In this document: piece after piece, positions 12,395 to 60,772 of the stretch | Layout: each line of letters starts with the position of its first letter | Numbering within the stretch: the stretch's first letter is position 1 | Origin: Sphingosinicella sp. LHD-64 | GTDB lineage: Bacteria; Pseudomonadota; Alphaproteobacteria; Sphingomonadales; Sphingomonadaceae | Assembly (NCBI RefSeq): GCF_031157375.1 | Contig: NZ_JAVIFV010000003.1 | Span: forward strand, 880,001-944,000 | Reading direction: 5' to 3' | Length of the DNA stretch: 64,000 nucleotides | The notes under the pieces: generated by a model | What the model was told of the DNA's origin: nothing | The model's database searches: none | The model's input: only the letters and a program-made list of their open reading frames with translations | Program-made: the position numbers and the translations under genes

Positions 12395-13008
12395 GTGGCG
12401 ATCATCCCCCTCGAGCGCAGGAAGGCGAGCAGCGGCAAAAGCGGCAGGCCGAGAATCGCGAAATGGCTGCCGTCGACCCGGTCGAACAGCTGCGCCCCCA
12501 GCCCCTCGATCCGGTAGCCGCCGACATTCCAGCGCACCTCGTCATATTCCCGCGCGAGATAATCGTCGAGGAAGGAATCGCCGAACTTGCGCATGACGAG
12601 GGTCGCCGTCTCGGTCGCACGCCAGCAAGGCCGGCCATTGGCGACGACGACGGCCGCAGAGTGGAGGAAATGAGTCCGGCCCCTCAGCACGCGCAATTGC
12701 ATCCGCATCTCAGCCACCGAGGCGGCCTTGCTGAAAATCTCGCCAGAATCGGTTTCCAGCACCTGATCTGCGCCAAGCACGAGCGCGTCGGCAGCCGCCG
12801 CGGCGCTGAGCGCTTTTCCTTCGGCCAGATGATCAGCGACGGTCCGGCCATCCGGATCCGAAGCCAAGACCTCAGCCTTGGCCTGCTCCTCGTCGAAGGG
12901 CGCATCGACGACCTCGAACGAAACGCCCGCGGCGTCGAGCATGCGCCGGCGCGTGCCGCTTTTCGACGCAAGCAGCAGCCCTGTCCTGAGCGACGCCGAA
13001 GGGTTCAC
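12391..13008 (-). CDS. maf: Maf-family nucleoside triphosphate pyrophosphatase with REP-encoded N-terminus
   Basis: A 205-residue Maf protein, a house-cleaning pyrophosphatase that hydrolyses modified or canonical nucleotides. The family opening LLLASKSGTRRRML starts at residue 11; LGADQVLE (78-85) carries the catalytic Asp and NVGGYRIEG is the conserved C-terminal block. The GTG start at 13008 overlaps the ppsR stop as GTGA. Residues 2-10 (NPSASLRTG) are encoded by a REP-like repeat and have no counterpart in typical Maf proteins. The next possible start is far inside the conserved core, so the extension is probably translated. Confidence 0.88.
   Translation of the reverse strand: MNPSASLRTGLLLASKSGTRRRMLDAAGVSFEVVDAPFDEEQAKAEVLASDPDGRTVADHLAEGKALSAAAAADALVLGADQVLETDSGEIFSKAASVAEMRMQLRVLRGRTHFLHSAAVVVANGRPCWRATETATLVMRKFGDSFLDDYLAREYDEVRWNVGGYRIEGLGAQLFDRVDGSHFAILGLPLLPLLAFLRSRGMIAT
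12979..13003. repeat. REP-like unit inside the maf reading frame
   Basis: The plus strand reads CCCTGTCCTGAGCGACGCCG then AAGGG. Its reverse complement closely matches the intergenic unit at 41982-42005 (shared GTCGCTCAGGACAGG against CTTCGCTCAGGACAGG). Here it falls within the coding sequence and is read in frame as residues 2-10 of Maf. Confidence 0.75.
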
Positions 13009-13823
13009 GCCGCGCCCTCGAGCCGCTCCATGTACAACCTGACGATGGCGAGCGCGCTTTCCTCGATCGAGCGGCGCGTCACGTCGATCACCGGCCAGCC
13101 ATTGTCCGCGAACATCCGCCGGGCGAAGGCGAGCTCGCCGTTCACCGCATCGCTGTCGACATAGTCGGTCTCCGGTGCCTGGTTGAGCGAGAGCAGCCGG
13201 TTGCGCCGGATCTGTATCAGCCGCTCGGGATTGGTGGTGAGCCCGACAATCAGCGGATGCGTCAAGCGGAACAGCGCGTCCGGCGGCGGCGAGGCGGGGA
13301 CCAGCGGCACGTTCGCGACCTTGTAGCCGCGATTGGCGAGATAGATGCTGGTCGGCGTCTTGGACGTGCGCGAGACGCCGGCGAGGACGATGTCGGCCTC
13401 CTCCCAATTCTCCGGCCCGACGCCGTCATCATGGGCGATGGTGAACTGGATCGCATCGACCCGCGCGAAATAGGCGGCGTCGAGCGCATGCTGGCGTCCG
13501 GCCCGGCCCTTGGCCTGATGGCCGCTGACGGCCGCCAGCGCGTCGAGCACCGGGTCGAGCACCGACACCGCATTGATCTGCCGCTGCCGGCATTTGCGTT
13601 CCAGCTCTTTCCGGATCGTCGGATTGACGACCGTGTAGAGGACCAGCCCCGGCCGCCGCTCGACGTCGTCGAGTACCCGGTCGAGATGGCCCTCGGACCG
13701 TACCATCGGCCAAGGGTGGCGGATCGCCTCGACGTCGTCGAACTGGGCGAGGCAGGCATTGGCGACCATGTCGAGCGTCTCGCCGGTGGAGTCCGAGAGG
13801 AGATGCAGGTGGAGCTGCTTCAT
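13005..13823 (-). CDS. ppsR: Pyruvate,water dikinase regulatory protein (DUF299)
   Basis: A 272-residue bifunctional regulator of the DUF299 family, acting as ADP-dependent kinase and Pi-dependent phosphorylase on phosphoenolpyruvate synthase or pyruvate phosphate dikinase. The nucleotide-binding loop GVSRTSKTPTS lies near residues 150-160. The N-terminus LHLLSDSTGETLD is characteristic. This is the homologue of Rickettsia RP001, the gene flanking the Caulobacter origin opposite hemE. It is the first gene of the leftward cluster and overlaps maf by 4 bp. Whether the target here is PPS or PPDK cannot be told. Confidence 0.92.
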   Translation of the reverse strand: MKQLHLHLLSDSTGETLDMVANACLAQFDDVEAIRHPWPMVRSEGHLDRVLDDVERRPGLVLYTVVNPTIRKELERKCRQRQINAVSVLDPVLDALAAVSGHQAKGRAGRQHALDAAYFARVDAIQFTIAHDDGVGPENWEEADIVLAGVSRTSKTPTSIYLANRGYKVANVPLVPASPPPDALFRLTHPLIVGLTTNPERLIQIRRNRLLSLNQAPETDYVDSDAVNGELAFARRMFADNGWPVIDVTRRSIEESALAIVRLYMERLEGAA

Positions 13824-14145
13824 CGGCGAGCGCCGATTTCGGGCCTGTGGAAAACCATGGGGAAATCGCTAGCTTAACCCTGCGCATCGCCGCAAGGACA
13901 GGATTCGCCCACGTCCGCCGCCAAACCGCCCACAGCTCGGCGAACAGTGCGCAAGATTCACGCACCGCCTGTGAATACCGGGGATGGCATTCGCGAATCC
14001 GCGGGAGTCCGCGCCGCTCGTCGCGTCAAGCTGTTGGCAAAATATGTGCGAGCCCATAAACCCCGCTTTGCCCACGCCTACTCACTTCAACAGACTCCTT
14101 AGAATCTAACTAGAGATTAGAAGAGAGCGGAGACGCCTTTCCTTC
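13824..14145. other. Candidate chromosomal replication origin (oriC) between ppsR and hemE
   Basis: A 322-bp gap between divergent ppsR and hemE, the same context as the Caulobacter origin (hemE/RP001). It holds TGTGGAAAA at 13846-13854 (one mismatch to the DnaA box TGTGGATAA), TGTGAATAC at 13970-13978 (one mismatch to TGTGNATAA), and weaker CCCAC-type sites. An AT-richer stretch at 14081-14122 contains CTAA-N7-TTAG (14106-14120), an inverted repeat resembling a CtrA half-site pair (TTAA-N7-TTAA). Promoters for both genes must also lie here. No gene is seen in it. Confidence 0.65.
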
Positions 14146-15174
14146 ATGCCCGGTCCGTCCAAGCCCTTGCTTACCGTCCTAAGTGGCAGGATTTCCGAGA
14201 GAAAACCGGTTTGGTTGATGCGCCAGGCAGGCCGCTATCTGCCAGAGTATCGCGCGCTGCGGGCGGAGAAGGGCGGCTTTCTCGCGCTCGTCTACGATCC
14301 CGACGCCGCGGCCGAGATCACGCTCCAGCCGATCCGCCGTTTCGGCTTCGACGGTGCGATCCTGTTTTCCGATATCCTGATCGTTCCCCACGCGATCGGC
14401 CAGGAGTTGAGCTTCGGTGCCGGCGAGGGCCCACGCCTCTCGCCGCCTTTGGTCGATGCGTCGCTCGCCGCCCTGGAGCGTGTCCCGGCGCGGCTCGAGC
14501 CGATCTATCGGACTGTGGAGAAAGTGAAGTCGCAATTGCCGGCGGAGACGACCTTCCTCGGCTTTGCGGGCAGCCCCTGGACAGTCGCGACCTATATGGT
14601 GGCGGGCCAGGGCAGCCGCGACCAGGCCGAGACGCGCGGCTTCGCCTATCGCGATCCGGCCGCCTTTTCCGCAATCGTCGACGCGGTCGCCCACATGACC
14701 GTCGACTATCTGGTCGGCCAGGCCGATGCCGGCGTCGAGGCGGTCCAGCTGTTCGACAGCTGGGCCGGCAGCCTTGCCCCGGCGCAGTTCGAGGACTGGG
14801 TGATCCGGCCGACCGCCGCCATCGTCGCGAATCTGAAGGCGCGGCGTCCCAACCTGCCGGTGATCGGATTCCCCAAGGGCGTCGGCAGCCGCATCGCCGC
14901 CTACGCGAACGAGACCGGCGTCGATGCGCTCGGGCTCGACGAGACGATCGCGCCGGAATGGGCCGTCGAGGCCCTGCCCGCCGATCTGCCGATCCAGGGC
15001 AATCTCGATCCGCTGGCGCTGCTGGCCGGCGGCGAGGCTCTTGAAAAGGCAGTGGCGCGCATCCTATCTGTGTTCGCGGGGCGGCCGCACATCTTCAACC
15101 TCGGCCACGGCATCATCAAGGAAACCCCGATCGGCCATGTCGAACGCCTGCTCGAACTGGTGCATGCGCGGTGA
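14146..15174 (+). CDS. hemE: Uroporphyrinogen decarboxylase
   Basis: A 342-residue enzyme that decarboxylates uroporphyrinogen III to coproporphyrinogen III in heme synthesis. The conserved start RKPVWLMRQAGRYLPEYR contains the substrate-binding Arg pair, and FSDILIVPHAIGQEL and the C-terminal FNLGHGIIKETP blocks are intact. First gene of the rightward cluster leaving the putative origin. The stop overlaps the hemJ start as GTGA (15171-15174). Confidence 0.95.
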   Translation: MPGPSKPLLTVLSGRISERKPVWLMRQAGRYLPEYRALRAEKGGFLALVYDPDAAAEITLQPIRRFGFDGAILFSDILIVPHAIGQELSFGAGEGPRLSPPLVDASLAALERVPARLEPIYRTVEKVKSQLPAETTFLGFAGSPWTVATYMVAGQGSRDQAETRGFAYRDPAAFSAIVDAVAHMTVDYLVGQADAGVEAVQLFDSWAGSLAPAQFEDWVIRPTAAIVANLKARRPNLPVIGFPKGVGSRIAAYANETGVDALGLDETIAPEWAVEALPADLPIQGNLDPLALLAGGEALEKAVARILSVFAGRPHIFNLGHGIIKETPIGHVERLLELVHAR

Positions 15175-20226: not shown

Positions 20227-20242
20227 TGTTCCACGTGGAACA
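20227..20242. promoter_or_regulatory. parS: parS site 1 (perfect 16-bp palindrome)
   Basis: TGTTCCACGTGGAACA, fully palindromic and close to the general parS consensus TGTTTCACGTGAAACA. It starts two bases after the mnmE stop and lies before the GTG start of mnmG. It is expected to load the ParB encoded at 23.5 kb. Confidence 0.92.
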
Positions 20243-22113: not shown

Positions 22114-22739
22114 TGGAGGAGGAGGAAGCGCGCACCTGGGTGGCGGAAACGTTCGATGTTCCACGTGAAACACTGGTGCGGCTGAATGCCTTTCTCGATC
22201 TGATTCGCGCCGAGAATGAGCATCAGAACCTTGTGTCGAAGGCGAGCCTGGACCAGCTTTGGAGCCGCCATATTGCCGATTCGGCTCAGCTTCTGCGCTT
22301 CACCCCGAGCCCGACGGCAAGCTGGCTCGACCTGGGCAGCGGGTCGGGTTTTCCTGGCCTCGTCGTTGCGGCGCTGCATCAGGGACCGGTCACTCTCGTC
22401 GAGGAGCGGCGATTACGCGTGGAATTTCTCCAGCGGGCAGCCGACCTGTTGGGCGTGCAGGTCGAGATTCTCGGAACGAAGGCCGAGCGCGTCCCGCCCC
22501 GCCCGTTCGACGTGATTAGCGCCCGCGCCTTCGCGCCGCTGCCGCGCCTGCTCGATCTTGCCACAGGATTTTCCACAACAAAGAGTCTGTGGGTGCTGCC
22601 CAAGGGACGAAATGCGCAGTCGGAACTGGAAGCGCTCGATCCTTCGTGGCAGGGTGACTTCCGGCTCGAACAGAGCGTGACCGACCCCGAGGCACGGATC
22701 ATCGTCGCGACCGGGGTCCGCAGAGGGAAGCGCCCATGA
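22113..22739 (+). CDS. rsmG: 16S rRNA (guanine527-N7)-methyltransferase RsmG
   Basis: A 208-residue SAM-dependent methyltransferase acting on G527 of 16S rRNA. The SAM loop LDLGSGSGFPG lies near residues 69-79; ISARAFAPLPRLL is the conserved block that follows. The codons for FDVPRETL (residues 14-21) contain a parS site. The ATG overlaps the mnmG stop by one base, and its own stop overlaps the parA start (ATGA). Confidence 0.93.
   Translation: MEEEEARTWVAETFDVPRETLVRLNAFLDLIRAENEHQNLVSKASLDQLWSRHIADSAQLLRFTPSPTASWLDLGSGSGFPGLVVAALHQGPVTLVEERRLRVEFLQRAADLLGVQVEILGTKAERVPPRPFDVISARAFAPLPRLLDLATGFSTTKSLWVLPKGRNAQSELEALDPSWQGDFRLEQSVTDPEARIIVATGVRRGKRP
22157..22172. promoter_or_regulatory. parS: parS site 2, inside rsmG
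   Basis: TGTTCCACGTGAAACA differs from the general parS consensus TGTTTCACGTGAAACA only at position 5. It is read as Val-Pro-Arg-Glu-Thr within RsmG, 1.9 kb from site 1 and about 0.6 kb before parA. Confidence 0.92.
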
Positions 22740-23518
22740 TCCGCATTGCGGTCGCCAATCAAAAAGGCGGGGTCGGCAAGACCACGACCGCGATCAATCT
22801 CGCCACCGCGCTGGCCGCGACGGGCCTGCGCGTCCTGCTGATCGATCTCGATCCGCAGGGCAATGCCTCGACCGGCCTCGGCATCACCCAGGCCCTGCGC
22901 GAGCGCTCCAGCTACGAATTGCTGACCGGGCAGGCGACCCTGGAAGAGGTGGTCGTCCAGACCCGCGTGCCGCGGCTCGACATCGTTCCCGCCAAGGTCG
23001 ATCTGTCGGGCGCCGAGATCGAGCTGATCGAGTTCGAGCGCCGCACCCACCGGCTCGACGGCGCGCTCGAAAATGTGCCCGCGGCGCGCTGGGAGGTCTG
23101 TCTGATCGATTGCCCGCCCTCGCTGGGCCTGCTCACCGTCAACGCGTTGATCGCCGCCAATTCGATCCTCGTGCCCCTGCAGGCCGAATTCTTCGCGCTC
23201 GAGGGCCTGAGCCAGCTCCTCAAGACGATCGAGCGGGTGCGCGAGCGGTTCAACCCGGAGCTCTCCGTCCTCGGCGTCGCGCTCACCATGTACGATCGGC
23301 GCAACAATCTCTCCGCCATGGTCGCCGATGATGTCCGCGCCGTGCTCGGCAAGGTCGTGTTCGAGACGGTCATTCCGCGCAACGTGCGCCTGTCGGAAGC
23401 ACCCAGCCACGGCATTCCCGCCCTGATCTACGACCATCGCTGTCCGGGTTCGGAGGCCTATATCGCGCTCGCCCGCGAGTTCATCGCCCGGCTGCCGCGC
23501 CCGGCGGAGGCGGCATGA
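22736..23518 (+). CDS. parA: Chromosome partitioning ATPase ParA (Soj)
   Basis: A 260-residue deviant Walker ATPase: KGGVGKTTTAINL (K10 and K15), LLIDLDPQGNASTG, and CLIDCPPSLG. ATP-dependent nonspecific DNA binding by ParA drives ParB-parS complexes, and thus the origin region, across the cell. Chromosomal type, without an N-terminal regulatory domain. Coupled by ATGA overlaps to rsmG upstream and parB downstream. Confidence 0.96.
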   Translation: MIRIAVANQKGGVGKTTTAINLATALAATGLRVLLIDLDPQGNASTGLGITQALRERSSYELLTGQATLEEVVVQTRVPRLDIVPAKVDLSGAEIELIEFERRTHRLDGALENVPAARWEVCLIDCPPSLGLLTVNALIAANSILVPLQAEFFALEGLSQLLKTIERVRERFNPELSVLGVALTMYDRRNNLSAMVADDVRAVLGKVVFETVIPRNVRLSEAPSHGIPALIYDHRCPGSEAYIALAREFIARLPRPAEAA

Positions 23519-24399
23519 GCGACGACCTGCCCAGGAAGCGCCCGACCGGGCTCGGCCGCGGCCTCTCCTCCCTGCTCGGCGAAGTGGCGCACGAGGCGCC
23601 GGTGGGCGGAAGCGACTCGCCCCAGGGCAATGTCCGCATGATCCCGATCGCCAGCATCGAGCCGAATCCGGACCAGCCGCGTCGCATCTTCGCCGAGGAG
23701 GCGCTGGCCGAGCTCGCCGGGTCGATCACCGCCCGCGGCGTCATCCAGCCGATCATCGTCCGCCCGCACGGCCACCGCTTCCAGATCGTCGCCGGCGAAC
23801 GGCGCTGGCGCGCCTCGCAGAAGGCCCGGCTGCATGAGATCCCGGCGATCGTCCGCGAGTTCAGCGACGAGGAGACGCTGGAGGTCGCCCTCGTCGAGAA
23901 CATCCAGCGGCGCGACCTCAACGCGATCGAGGAGGCGCAGGCCTACAGGCGGCTGGTCGACGATTACGGCCACACCCAGGAAGAGCTCGGCCGGATCGTC
24001 CACAAGTCGCGCAGTCATGTTGCCAACCTGTTGAGATTGCTCGATCTTCCCGCGAAGGTTCAGGTCCTGGTCGGCACCGGCCAGCTCACCATGGGCCACG
24101 CCCGCGCGCTCGTCTCGGCGACCGATCCGGAAGGGCTCGCCGACGAGGTGGTCCGCCGCGGCCTCTCGGTGCGCGAGACCGAGAAGCTCGCCCAGTCGGG
24201 CAAGCCGACCCGCCAGCGGCCGCTGCCGATCAAGAACGCCCAGGCAGACATCGCCGCGCTGGAGCGGCAACTGGGTGACATGCTCGGCCTCAAGGTCGCG
24301 ATCAGGCACAGCCCCAAGGGCGGCCAGGTCATCCTCGCCTATTCGACGCTGGATCAGCTCGATATGATCTGCCAGCGCCTCAGCGGCGACAAGTTTTGA
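23515..24399 (+). CDS. parB: Chromosome partitioning protein ParB (Spo0J)
   Basis: A 294-residue CTP-dependent parS-binding clamp. It has the N-terminal ParA-interaction motif GLGRGLSSLLG (12-22), the CTP-binding GERRWRAS (94-101) and ENIQRRDLNAIEEA blocks, a central helix-turn-helix (HTQEELGRIVHKSRSHVANLLRLL) and a C-terminal dimerisation domain. Its targets are the parS sites at 20227 and 22157. Last gene of the mnmE-parB run and followed by a REP pair. Confidence 0.96.
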   Translation: MSDDLPRKRPTGLGRGLSSLLGEVAHEAPVGGSDSPQGNVRMIPIASIEPNPDQPRRIFAEEALAELAGSITARGVIQPIIVRPHGHRFQIVAGERRWRASQKARLHEIPAIVREFSDEETLEVALVENIQRRDLNAIEEAQAYRRLVDDYGHTQEELGRIVHKSRSHVANLLRLLDLPAKVQVLVGTGQLTMGHARALVSATDPEGLADEVVRRGLSVRETEKLAQSGKPTRQRPLPIKNAQADIAALERQLGDMLGLKVAIRHSPKGGQVILAYSTLDQLDMICQRLSGDKF

Positions 24400-28624: not shown

Positions 28625-29110
28625 CTAGCCGATGGAGGCGGCGCGCCTCAGGTCGCGGGCACGGGTGAGGATGATCTCCTCAAGCCGCTGGACGGTCGCC
28701 GCGGTCACCGGCGCCTCGATCCACTGGCCGTTCTGCATCACCTGGCGCGCGGCGTTGACGCGCAGGGCGTCGGCGCGCAGGTCGCGGTCGAGGATCGCGA
28801 CGCTGACCTTCACCCGCTCGTTCGGATTCTGCGGGTTGGCATACCAGTCGGTCGCGAGCACGCCGCCATTGGAATCGCTCTGGGCGAGCGGCGCAAAGGC
28901 GAGCGTTTCGACCGCGGCGCGCCACAAATAGGCATTGACGCCGATCGTCGTCACCTGGCTCGCGGCGATGTCCGCCTGCTTCCCCCGGTCCTCCCGCGGC
29001 GCGAGGCCGAGCGCACGGTCGACGTCCCGGCTGAACGAATTGAAGGACTGGCAGCCAGCCAGCATGACGGCACAGGCGGCGACCAGGCCGAAGGTGGAAA
29101 GGCGAGCCAT
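28625..29110 (-). CDS. DUF3576 family lipoprotein
   Basis: A 161-residue exported lipoprotein (lipobox LAGC). The conserved part, [20 protein letters not shown] followed by [11 protein letters not shown], matches DUF3576, a family of unknown function found beside leuS in alphaproteobacteria. ATG 29110 with AAGGA upstream is preferred; the reading frame stays open further but the extension has no signal sequence. A 230-bp divergent region to the next gene contains the palindrome CCGGAATGATTCCGG near 29260 and must hold promoters both ways. Confidence 0.83.
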
Positions 29111-29340
29111 CGTGAATCCTTGGAAAATACGCTCTTCGAGAGGGCCGTTATAGATAACGGCGCGCGCCCGGCAAGCGCCGCGTGCGCGGGTTCCGGCGCG
29201 ATTCGCCGCCATTAACCTCATTTCCAGATCAATTGGTTGTGGGAAAGTTGCAACAGCCGGAATGATTCCGGTATGAATCCCGGTCGGCCGGACCCTTTCC
29301 ATAGGAATGGGGGGCGAGTCGTATTACGTTTCGGCCGAAC

Positions 29341-30087
29341 GTGGAGTCGCATGTCGTGAGGAAGCTTCGGGCCATCGGGTCGGCAGGAGGCGCATCGCTT
29401 GTCGCGATGGCGTTGCTGCTCGCCCCTGCTCTGGCCGCTTCCACCGCCGTCCGCAACACCGCCCGCCCGCCCGCCATAGCCCAGGCCCGTCCGGTCGGCG
29501 CCTTCACCCCGGCCGTGTCCGATCCGCGCCTCGCCGCCCTGCTGGCCCGCTCCGGCGGCGCGGTCGATGCCGATTTCCGCTTCACGCCGGCAGGCAACAA
29601 TGCCGACCGCAACCGCGCCGTCCGGGTCGCGATCCGCGCCCGGGCGACGACCCCGGCGCAGGCGCAGCGCGACGTTCTGTCGATCACGTCGGCCTCGCCG
29701 GTGACCGCGATCACGCCGGTCTCCTACAATCTCGGCGCATCGCTCGGCTGGCGGCGCTTCGCCGTTTCCGGCGACATCGCCCAGATCGACGGCGGCGTCG
29801 TTCCGGGCCGGCGCGAGGCGGCGCAGGTTGGCATGAGCTACCGCGCCAATCGGCGGCTGACCGGCCGCGTGGCGGTTGCCGCCGAACGCGCCGAGGGCGC
29901 CCAGCGGATCGTGTCGGAAGACGAAGCCTATTCGCTCGACGTCGGCGGCGCCTTCTCGATCACCCGCAACATCGATCTCACCGCCGGCGCGCGCTATCGC
30001 ATCGCCCGTGACCGGGTCGACACGATCGCCCGCGACGAGCGCCAGGACAGCCAGGCCGTCTATATCGGCACGGCCTTCCGCTTCTAG
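29341..30087 (+). CDS. Exported protein with predicted outer-membrane beta-strand pattern, function unknown
   Basis: A 248-residue protein with a signal peptide (cleavage near LAPALA-A). From about residue 120, alternating hydrophobic strands (SLGWRRFAVSGDIAQI, AQVGMSYRANRRLTGRVAVAAE, DLTAGARYRIARD) end in a C-terminal Phe (GTAFRF), the usual outer-membrane barrel signature. The number of strands is low, so it may be a small porin-like or periplasmic protein. Start is GTG 29341 or GTG 29356; neither has a strong ribosome site. Convergent with the next gene (4-bp overlap). Confidence 0.6.
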   Translation: MESHVVRKLRAIGSAGGASLVAMALLLAPALAASTAVRNTARPPAIAQARPVGAFTPAVSDPRLAALLARSGGAVDADFRFTPAGNNADRNRAVRVAIRARATTPAQAQRDVLSITSASPVTAITPVSYNLGASLGWRRFAVSGDIAQIDGGVVPGRREAAQVGMSYRANRRLTGRVAVAAERAEGAQRIVSEDEAYSLDVGGAFSITRNIDLTAGARYRIARDRVDTIARDERQDSQAVYIGTAFRF

Positions 30088-42793: not shown

Positions 42794-43585
42794 ATGAGCA
42801 CGCAGCTTCCCGCGCTCGATCCTTCGGTGTTCGAGCCCCCGCCGGCCGCGGTCGACTTCTATGTCGAATGCCTGCGCCTGCTCGACGAATCGGGTATCCC
42901 CTTCCTGTTGTCCGGCACCTATGCCCTGTCCTGCTATACGGGCATCGTCCGGCCGACGAAGGATCTCGACGTCTTCTGCAAGCCGTCGGACGCGCCCCGG
43001 ATACTCAGCTTCTTCAAGGAGCGCGGCTACCGGATCGACATCGAGGACGAGCGCTGGATCGGCAAGGTCTGGAAGGACGACCGGCATTTCTTCGACGTCA
43101 TCTACAACATGTCCACCGCCGGCATGCCGGTGACCGAGGACTGGTTCGCCGAAGGCTATGAGGTCGAGGTTTACGGCACCAACGTGCGGATCACCCCGCC
43201 GACCGAGTTCATCCTCTCCAAGCTCTTCCTGCAGGACCGCTACCGCTACGACGGCGCCGACGTCGCCCACGTGATCCTCAAGAAGCATGACGAGATCGAC
43301 TGGCAGAAGCTGCTGAACGCGCTGGAGCTCTACTGGGAGGTGCTCCTCATCCACGTTCTCAATTTCCGCTTCATCTACCCGACCGAGCGCGAGTGCATCC
43401 CGCGCTGGCTGTTCGACGAGCTGCTTGCCCGGCTGGCGGCACAGGCGGAGATGCCGACGGCGCGCATGAAGATCTGCCGCGGCCGCCTGTTCAGCCCGCG
43501 CGACTACATCACCGACATCACCGAATGGGGCTTCGCCGACGTGGTCGGAAAGGGCATCGAGGAGAAGCATGAGCCCAAGTCGTGA
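42794..43585 (+). CDS. Nucleotidyltransferase-fold protein of unknown function
   Basis: A 263-residue protein. The NTase core is visible: LLSGTYALSCYTGIVRPTKDLDVFCK, where S40-G41 precedes the metal pair D57-x-D59 and D101 (FFDVIY) fits the third acidic residue. A helical domain follows (about 125-200, PTEFILSKLFLQDRYRYDGADVAHVI). The pattern is that of the AbiEii/MNT-like NTase group. The acceptor (RNA, protein, small molecule) is unknown. The last 17 bp overlap the metallophosphoesterase gene, suggesting joint function. Confidence 0.75.
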   Translation: MSTQLPALDPSVFEPPPAAVDFYVECLRLLDESGIPFLLSGTYALSCYTGIVRPTKDLDVFCKPSDAPRILSFFKERGYRIDIEDERWIGKVWKDDRHFFDVIYNMSTAGMPVTEDWFAEGYEVEVYGTNVRITPPTEFILSKLFLQDRYRYDGADVAHVILKKHDEIDWQKLLNALELYWEVLLIHVLNFRFIYPTERECIPRWLFDELLARLAAQAEMPTARMKICRGRLFSPRDYITDITEWGFADVVGKGIEEKHEPKS

Positions 43586-59932: not shown

Positions 59933-60772
59933 ATGAAACGCAGGGATTTCATCCTGTTGGGCACCGTCTTCGCGCTGACCGGGCTTGCCGTCCCGGCCGC
60001 CGCGCAACGCTTCCGGCCGACCCGCTTCTCGGCTCAGGTGCGGGGGCGCGGGCCCGATGTGATCCTGATTCCGGGTCTGACTTCGGGCCGCGACGTCTGG
60101 GCCGGCACCGTCGCCGCCGTCCCCGGCTACCGCTATCACCTCCTCCAGGTCGCGGGCTTCGCCGGCGAGCCGGCGGGCGCCAACCGCACCGGCCCGCTCG
60201 TCCGCCCGCTCGCCGACGAGATTATCCGCTACATCGAGATGCACGGCCTGCGCCGTCCCGCCATCGTCGGTCATTCGATGGGCGGGGCGCTCGCCATGAT
60301 GATCGCGGCGCGCCGGCCGGAGCTGCCCGGGCGGATCATGGTCGTCGATATGCTGCCCCAGCCCGCCGGCCTGCTCGGCGGCACCGCCACCGGCTGGGGG
60401 CCGCTCGCCCGCAGCCTCGGATCGATGATGGAGACGCCCGGCGGCCGCCAGCTCTTCGCCAATCTGATGGGCGCGTTCAGTCCGCCCGGCGCGCCGAACC
60501 GCCGCAGCGATCCCGATGTGGTCGGCCGCGCGATGAGCGAGCTCACCTCGACCGATCTCACGCCCCAGCTCCCCCGCATCCGCGCGCCGATGACGGTGGT
60601 CTACGGTTCGGCCGACCCGCGCGGGCGCGCCGCCGTCGATCGGGAATTCGCGACAGCCTATGCACCCGCCCGCAGCGCGCGGCTGGTTCGCATCGACGGC
60701 GCTGGCCACATGGTAATGCTCGACCAGCCGGCCCGTTTCCAGCGCGCGCTGAGGACGTTCCTCAGCGGCTAG
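59933..60772 (+). CDS. Exported alpha/beta hydrolase
   Basis: A 279-residue protein starting MKRRDFILLG, a twin-Lys/Arg signal peptide ending near PAAAQ. The hydrolase domain has the nucleophile elbow GHSMGG (Ser near residue 116), VVYGSADPRGR and the catalytic His in DGAGHMVM. Probably a periplasmic esterase or lipase-like enzyme; substrate unknown. Divergent from polA (77 bp) and overlapping the VOC pseudogene at its end. Confidence 0.85.
   Translation: MKRRDFILLGTVFALTGLAVPAAAQRFRPTRFSAQVRGRGPDVILIPGLTSGRDVWAGTVAAVPGYRYHLLQVAGFAGEPAGANRTGPLVRPLADEIIRYIEMHGLRRPAIVGHSMGGALAMMIAARRPELPGRIMVVDMLPQPAGLLGGTATGWGPLARSLGSMMETPGGRQLFANLMGAFSPPGAPNRRSDPDVVGRAMSELTSTDLTPQLPRIRAPMTVVYGSADPRGRAAVDREFATAYAPARSARLVRIDGAGHMVMLDQPARFQRALRTFLSG

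Follow-up and report, generated by a model that had tools for sequence, protein, structure and literature searches.

The ppsR-hemE gap and its features

The stretch of DNA analysed here, which we call the window, comprises 64,000 nucleotides (C3:880001-944000) of the Sphingosinicella sp. LHD-64 genome, which holds 3.89 Mb (3,888,792 bases) in 8 contigs. Within it, the divergent genes ppsR (RP001 homologue; 13005-13823, minus strand; NF003742, E=2.1e-98) and hemE (14146-15174, plus strand; TIGR01464, E=1.6e-115) bound an intergenic gap of 322 bp at 13824-14145. This arrangement had been described in an earlier, sequence-only reading, and the family models and coordinates agree with it. Based on a profile match and synteny, the whole gap is our candidate oriC. 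Family models place rho, mnmE, mnmG, parA and parB among the genes 3' of hemE in the window. Neither an Rfam scan nor promoter and terminator scans gave a match inside the gap.

The DnaA-box, KOPS, parS and CtrA motifs used in our scans are the forms which we take to be the consensus. Two near-DnaA-box motifs had been noticed at 13846 and 13970, and both are present in the sequence at those positions. Box 1 (TGTGGAAAA / TTTTCCACA; 13846-13854, minus strand) is an exact TTWTNCACA on the minus strand, a form matched twice in the window as opposed to 0.24 times expected. Box 2 (TGTGAATAC / GTATTCACA; 13970-13978, minus strand), which is followed by CGGGGA, is degenerate, being two bases off TTATCCACA and one off TTATTCACA. 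The gap contains two sites with at most two mismatches to TTATCCACA, compared to 0.30 expected; another 322-bp stretch of the window, starting at 43098, contains four, and the exact TTATCCACA, present eight times in the genome, is absent from the ppsR-hemE gap. Thus, DnaA boxes alone would not pick out the gap.

The AT-richer end of the sequence-only reading is found on the hemE side, where the best 40-mer (14087-14126), a candidate unwinding element, reaches 65% AT, a value attained by 0.05% of the 40-mers in the window. A CTAA-N7-TTAG inverted repeat, which is a relaxed CtrA-like pattern, lies at 14106-14120 and is the sole match in 64 kb. Between box 2 and the AT-rich end, a conserved block, GTCAAGCTGTTGGCA, occupies 14025-14039 on the plus strand. 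A TTGGCA in it (14034-14039) is spaced by 16 bp from an ATAAAC (14056-14061), and the pair could be a candidate hemE promoter; a sigma-70 scan called no promoter at 14025-14061.

The gap also contains six GANTC (CcrM) sites, which are absent from the sequence-only reading and of which first-order shuffles expect 1.3 (P about 0.001). They are located at 13902-13906 (site 1), 13955-13959 (site 2), 13995-13999 (site 3), 14005-14009 (site 4), 14093-14097 (site 5) and 14102-14106 (site 6), the last two in the AT-rich end. A second cluster of six GANTC in 322 bp is present at 29114-29435, overlapping a DUF3576 gene (28625-29302, minus strand).

Further 3' of hemE, the motif scan identified two parS-like sites, TGTTCCACGTGGAACA at 20227-20242 and TGTTCCACGTGAAACA at 22157-22172, and parA and parB (AAA_31/CbiA; ParB_N, HTH_ParB, ParB_C) occupy 22736-24399 on the plus strand. 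At up to two mismatches these are the only two parS-like sites of the genome and they lie 6-8 kb from the gap, which bears out the previous claim of parAB and two parS sites at a distance of 6-10 kb. At the right end of the window, colinearity with the nearest relative stops after the gene at 59933-60772 and restarts at C3:999 kb. The approximately 57 kb in between (window 60.8-64.0 kb on to C3:998 kb) have no colinear partner in the sampled sequence of the relative and, since a few of their genes match elsewhere in it, could represent an insertion or relocated segments.

Conservation of the gap among relatives

To compare the gap among relatives, we scanned the genome collection for HemE and fetched the best 80 loci of a longer list, which together with the window gives 81. 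A ppsR divergent to hemE with a gap of 271-456 bp was found at 76 of these 81 loci (75 among the best 80 listed, plus the window); of the other five, one lies where a contig ends and four have no ppsR match. Loci L101, L103, L104, L105 and L137 (no ppsR match) were left out before counting, five more distant loci (L156, L157, L159, L161 and L162; hemE identity 54-56%) were set apart and are reported separately, and two rows with odd titles, L085 Microvirga (72% hemE identity) and L147 Bacillus (65%), were kept. The set of 71 gaps used below includes the window; the profile was built from the 70 related gaps, window excluded.

An alignment of 16 gaps shows blocks in common. The 70-gap profile matches the window gap at 13835-14126 with 136 bits (E=5.1e-40), and the next-best match in 1.42 Mb of own sequence sampled is not significant (E=0.16). 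In two genomes of the same genus, G025 and G008 (400 kb each), the profile is significant solely at the hemE gap.

TTWTNCACA occurs 79 times over the 71 gaps (in 46 of them) as opposed to 1.2 times by shuffling, an enrichment of about 66-fold, and the TCCACA core is present in 71/71, although the gaps share ancestry and counts over them are therefore not independent events. For finer resolution we used a set of 30 gaps, 26 from the same genus (own included) and four from other genera of the family. The TGTGGAWAA of box 1 is found in the first 110 bp of 25/26 same-genus gaps and 0/4 other-genus gaps, one of the latter having a looser box 1, TGTGGAGAA. TGTG-N7-GGGA, the conserved form of box 2, occurs anywhere in the gap in 26/26 and 0/4, respectively, with TGTGGA at the box-2 place in most same-genus gaps, and the GTCAA.CTGTT part of the GTCAAGCTGTTGGCA block in 24/26 and 0/4. 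Given this distribution, the exact forms of these three elements are genus-level. Our own gap has one TCCACA core; 26 of the other 29 have two to four.

The gap could be merely a conserved two-way promoter of ppsR and hemE, the origin being elsewhere on the contig, at C3:0.60-0.70 Mb or to the right of the window. The GTCAAGCTGTTGGCA block could indeed be a promoter, but the accumulation of DnaA-box forms over the 71 gaps argues against this explanation, which, together with the chromosome-scale evidence given below, we consider improbable.

The GANTC sites are conserved to different extents. Counting a GANTC as aligned when it lies within 2 bp in the alignment of 71 gaps, site 3 is the best conserved (50/71), followed by site 6 (39/71), site 4 (20/71), site 1 (16/71), site 2 (10/71) and site 5 (6/71). 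Site 3, which follows DnaA box 2 and precedes the GTCAAGCTGTTGGCA block, lies 37 bp upstream of TGTTGGCA; its middle base across the 50 gaps is A (23) or C (27), and the 35 gaps with the TGTTGGCA anchor have 35 GANTC at -36 to -38 relative to it.

GANTC density reaches 13.7/kb in the 71 gaps compared to 2.5/kb in other intergenic DNA (418 stretches, each 150 bp or longer), which comes from our own rough ORF caller and may hold missed genes, so that the true background may be higher; in coding DNA of those loci it is 2.2/kb. Among control palindromes of equal base composition, CANTG (1.9 vs 2.6/kb, gaps vs intergenic) and GTNAC (1.5 vs 2.1/kb) are not enriched and CTNAG (1.45 vs 1.20/kb) hardly so. 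At least three GANTC are present in 62/71 gaps, as opposed to 21 of the 221 other intergenic stretches that reach 250 bp. Shuffles with the composition of the gaps give 100.8 sites where 321 are observed, and this 3.2-fold figure is safer than the ratio to the roughly called intergenic stretches. In the five more distant gaps there are 14 GANTC over 2,128 bp, and three of these gaps also have a full CtrA site; the enrichment may thus extend beyond Sphingomonadales. A mild periodicity of about 10.25 bp among GANTC sites (R=0.28, 248 pairs) was seen in these related sequences, and we do not claim helical phasing.

Chromosome polarity and the position of the origin

KOPS, whose motif we take to be GGGNAGGG, point from origin to terminus. 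We searched eight few-contig genomes of the same genus and fitted one origin and one terminus to the five with complete AGGGCAGGG lists: G009, G020, G008, G001 and G025, of which three are single contigs and two (G001 and G025) were represented by contig C1 only. The results show that the distance between hemE and the antipode of the terminus set by KOPS is 6 (G009), 23 (G020), 74 (G008), 9 (G001) and 64 kb (G025). If the genomes are taken as independent, these distances have a combined P of about 9e-6, which becomes 2e-4 when rounded lengths are allowed 25 kb of slack.

The KOPS terminus is sharp in these five genomes and the origin side is blunter. The best KOPS break is one site off hemE in G009, G020 and G008 (1.6-3.6 log units) and three sites off in G025 (3.1 log units; 6.1 for dnaA). 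In G001 it lies four sites and 264 kb away from hemE and is better by 12.2 log units, which on its face contradicts a hemE origin in that genome and favours an origin away from a ppsR/hemE promoter.

In our own genome, plain GC skew is near noise, and we therefore used four-fold-site skew and KOPS. The skew was computed from 1,423,001 of the 3,888,792 bases and amounts to -0.074 for leading and -0.155 for lagging genes. On C1 the orientation of GGGCAGGG and AGGGCAGGG changes from plus to minus near 0.2 Mb, which marks the terminus; GGGCAGGG also ranks among the octamers of strongest polarity in the genome (computed on strands already assigned). The skew minimum that the sequence-only reading had proposed to look for at about 14 kb of the window does not fall there in the sampled sequence of this weakly skewed genome with its rearranged contig. 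No switch of four-fold-site skew occurs at hemE, C3:840-894 kb and C3:894-945 kb both looking minus-strand-leading, and the cumulative skew falls below its value at hemE (-533) at C3:941 kb (-1042) and 1,070 kb (-1059). Likewise, KOPS on C3 are concordant with hemE at 20/28 and with breaks at about 0.60-0.70 Mb at 22/28. Skew and KOPS of this genome thus favour breaks off hemE, as the promoter explanation would have it.

Against this stands the history of the contig. C3:850-940 kb is colinear with the nearest relative around hemE (64 genes), and the flanks are inverted or moved. Because C3 is rearranged relative to the nearest relative, we read its skew as disturbed and weak, and not as a refutation. 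Within the 64-gene colinear block the skew speaks against an origin at hemE. The nearest relative (hemE at 604 kb) is mixed: 580-600 kb is minus-leading and 600-640 kb plus-leading, but the signs are reversed further out, at 560-580 kb (plus-leading) and 640-680 kb (minus-leading). A bin holds 5-13 genes per strand, so that these local skews are all noisy. Local skew was therefore dropped as a decider. Symmetric inversions around hemE, seen as an X-pattern, were also considered: not counting the hemE-spanning block, 9/16 blocks fit and 7, including 3 multi-gene ones, do not, so that the pattern gives no support.

What weighs against an origin elsewhere on C3 is, besides the DnaA boxes, the proximity of hemE to the terminus antipode in five relatives and the confinement of the parS-like sites of this genome to the hemE neighbourhood. 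The same evidence, together with the profile match of the gap, supports the claim of the sequence-only reading that the gap is oriC. Judged from sequence comparison, the ppsR-hemE gap is very probably the chromosomal origin, of the hemE/RP001 alphaproteobacterial type.

An origin beside dnaA is common in many other bacteria, and the G020 contig starts at dnaA (position 358). Here such a location is extremely improbable: in the five same-genus genomes, dnaA and the KOPS terminus are 0.14-0.52 Mb apart, and dnaA as an origin fits 6-46 log-likelihood units below the best position (the dnaA positions of G006, G015 and G018 were left out of the comparison); our own dnaA, at C1:466 kb, and the KOPS flip are separated by about 0.25 Mb.

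With the origin in the ppsR-hemE gap, DnaA would bind the ppsR-proximal box 1 and the central box 2, and its filament would grow toward hemE. The AT-rich stretch at about 14087-14126 would open and two forks would leave. The copies would then be separated by ParB bound to the parS sites, which lie at a distance of 6-8 kb. As six CcrM sites are interspersed with and adjoin these elements, each fresh copy of the origin would be expected to be hemimethylated for a time.

GANTC sites, CtrA and the control of initiation

An oriC near hemE has been predicted before in this family, by Ori-Finder for Sphingopyxis granuli TFA and by DoriC for most Sphingomonadaceae (PMC4741004), and dnaA has been described as not close to ori in Sphingomonadales (PMC8116508). 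Our gap shares with the former the hemE flank, presumed DnaA boxes and an AT-rich stretch that is a candidate for unwinding. It differs in having just two recognisable boxes, the second degenerate, and in the clustering of GANTC, of which the part of PMC4741004 considered here makes no mention. Cori of Caulobacter crescentus likewise has hemE on one side, DnaA boxes and an AT-rich region, and several GANTC have been reported in it (PMC3973325). On the other hand, Cori has five full CtrA boxes (PMC8959179, in the portion considered), whereas gaps of our type are without conserved CtrA-like sites; the distance of dnaA from ori in Sphingomonadales (PMC8116508) is a further difference.

This bears on whether the origin is gated by CtrA as in Caulobacter, with the CTAA-N7-TTAG repeat as a CtrA site. 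The repeat resembles TTAA-N7-TTAA, which we take to be the full CtrA site, and occurs once in the window. As a rule, conserved TTAA-N7-TTAA boxes were not found in the 71 related gaps: the full site is present in 2/71, and the relaxed YTAA-N7-TTAR in 4/71 (own included) and 1/26 same-genus gaps. This rarity suggests that our own repeat is probably incidental; the sequence-only reading was right about its presence (14106-14120), but it is not a conserved element. The full site is found in 3/5 of the more distant gaps. Furthermore, a ctrA knock-out in Sphingomonas melonis had no negative effect on growth or viability, according to the relevant part of PMC8116508. CtrA gating of this origin thus appears very unlikely.

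Clustering of methylation sites at origins has precedents. In the portion of PMC4752239 considered here, origin motif clusters are described for four methylases, including Dam GATC in Enterobacteria, and none with GANTC. Our gap resembles these orphan-methylase origins in that a motif is enriched several-fold in non-coding DNA at a putative origin, and differs in that the motif is that of CcrM. A rise of GANTC around ori has been reported for four orders, with chromosomes split into 100 parts (PMC9836097, in part), and in Sphingomonas sp. AAP5 no other methylated motif was as abundant as GANTC (PMC8067484, in part). In the open-licence literature, as far as it was covered, we found no description of a base-level GANTC cluster in sphingomonad origins.

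Based on these observations, a tentative and rather doubtful idea is that the Sphingomonadales origin may be timed by a built-in array of CcrM sites instead of CtrA boxes, hemimethylation delaying re-initiation. Hemimethylation after firing would be read by DnaA directly or via GcrA, and a Dam/SeqA-like control would have evolved with a different methylase. The genome encodes both a CcrM-like methylase (PF01555 + PF18755, L233) and GcrA. As for other systems, in the parts of the sources considered, Caulobacter was found to control initiation without requiring CcrM (PMC3973325), and methylation in Agrobacterium affects ori2 and not detectably ori1 (PMC11514494).

Taken with the earlier predictions for relatives, the gap is a well-supported case of an origin type already known, and its standout feature is the GANTC cluster without conserved CtrA boxes, a cluster shared by the gaps of many relatives. 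The location itself, at hemE and not at dnaA, corrects chromosome maps, at least one contig having been opened at dnaA, a gene found in the terminus half in five genomes. The GANTC cluster, the rarity of CtrA boxes and the dispensable ctrA of S. melonis together provide a testable idea for how initiation may be held to once per cycle.
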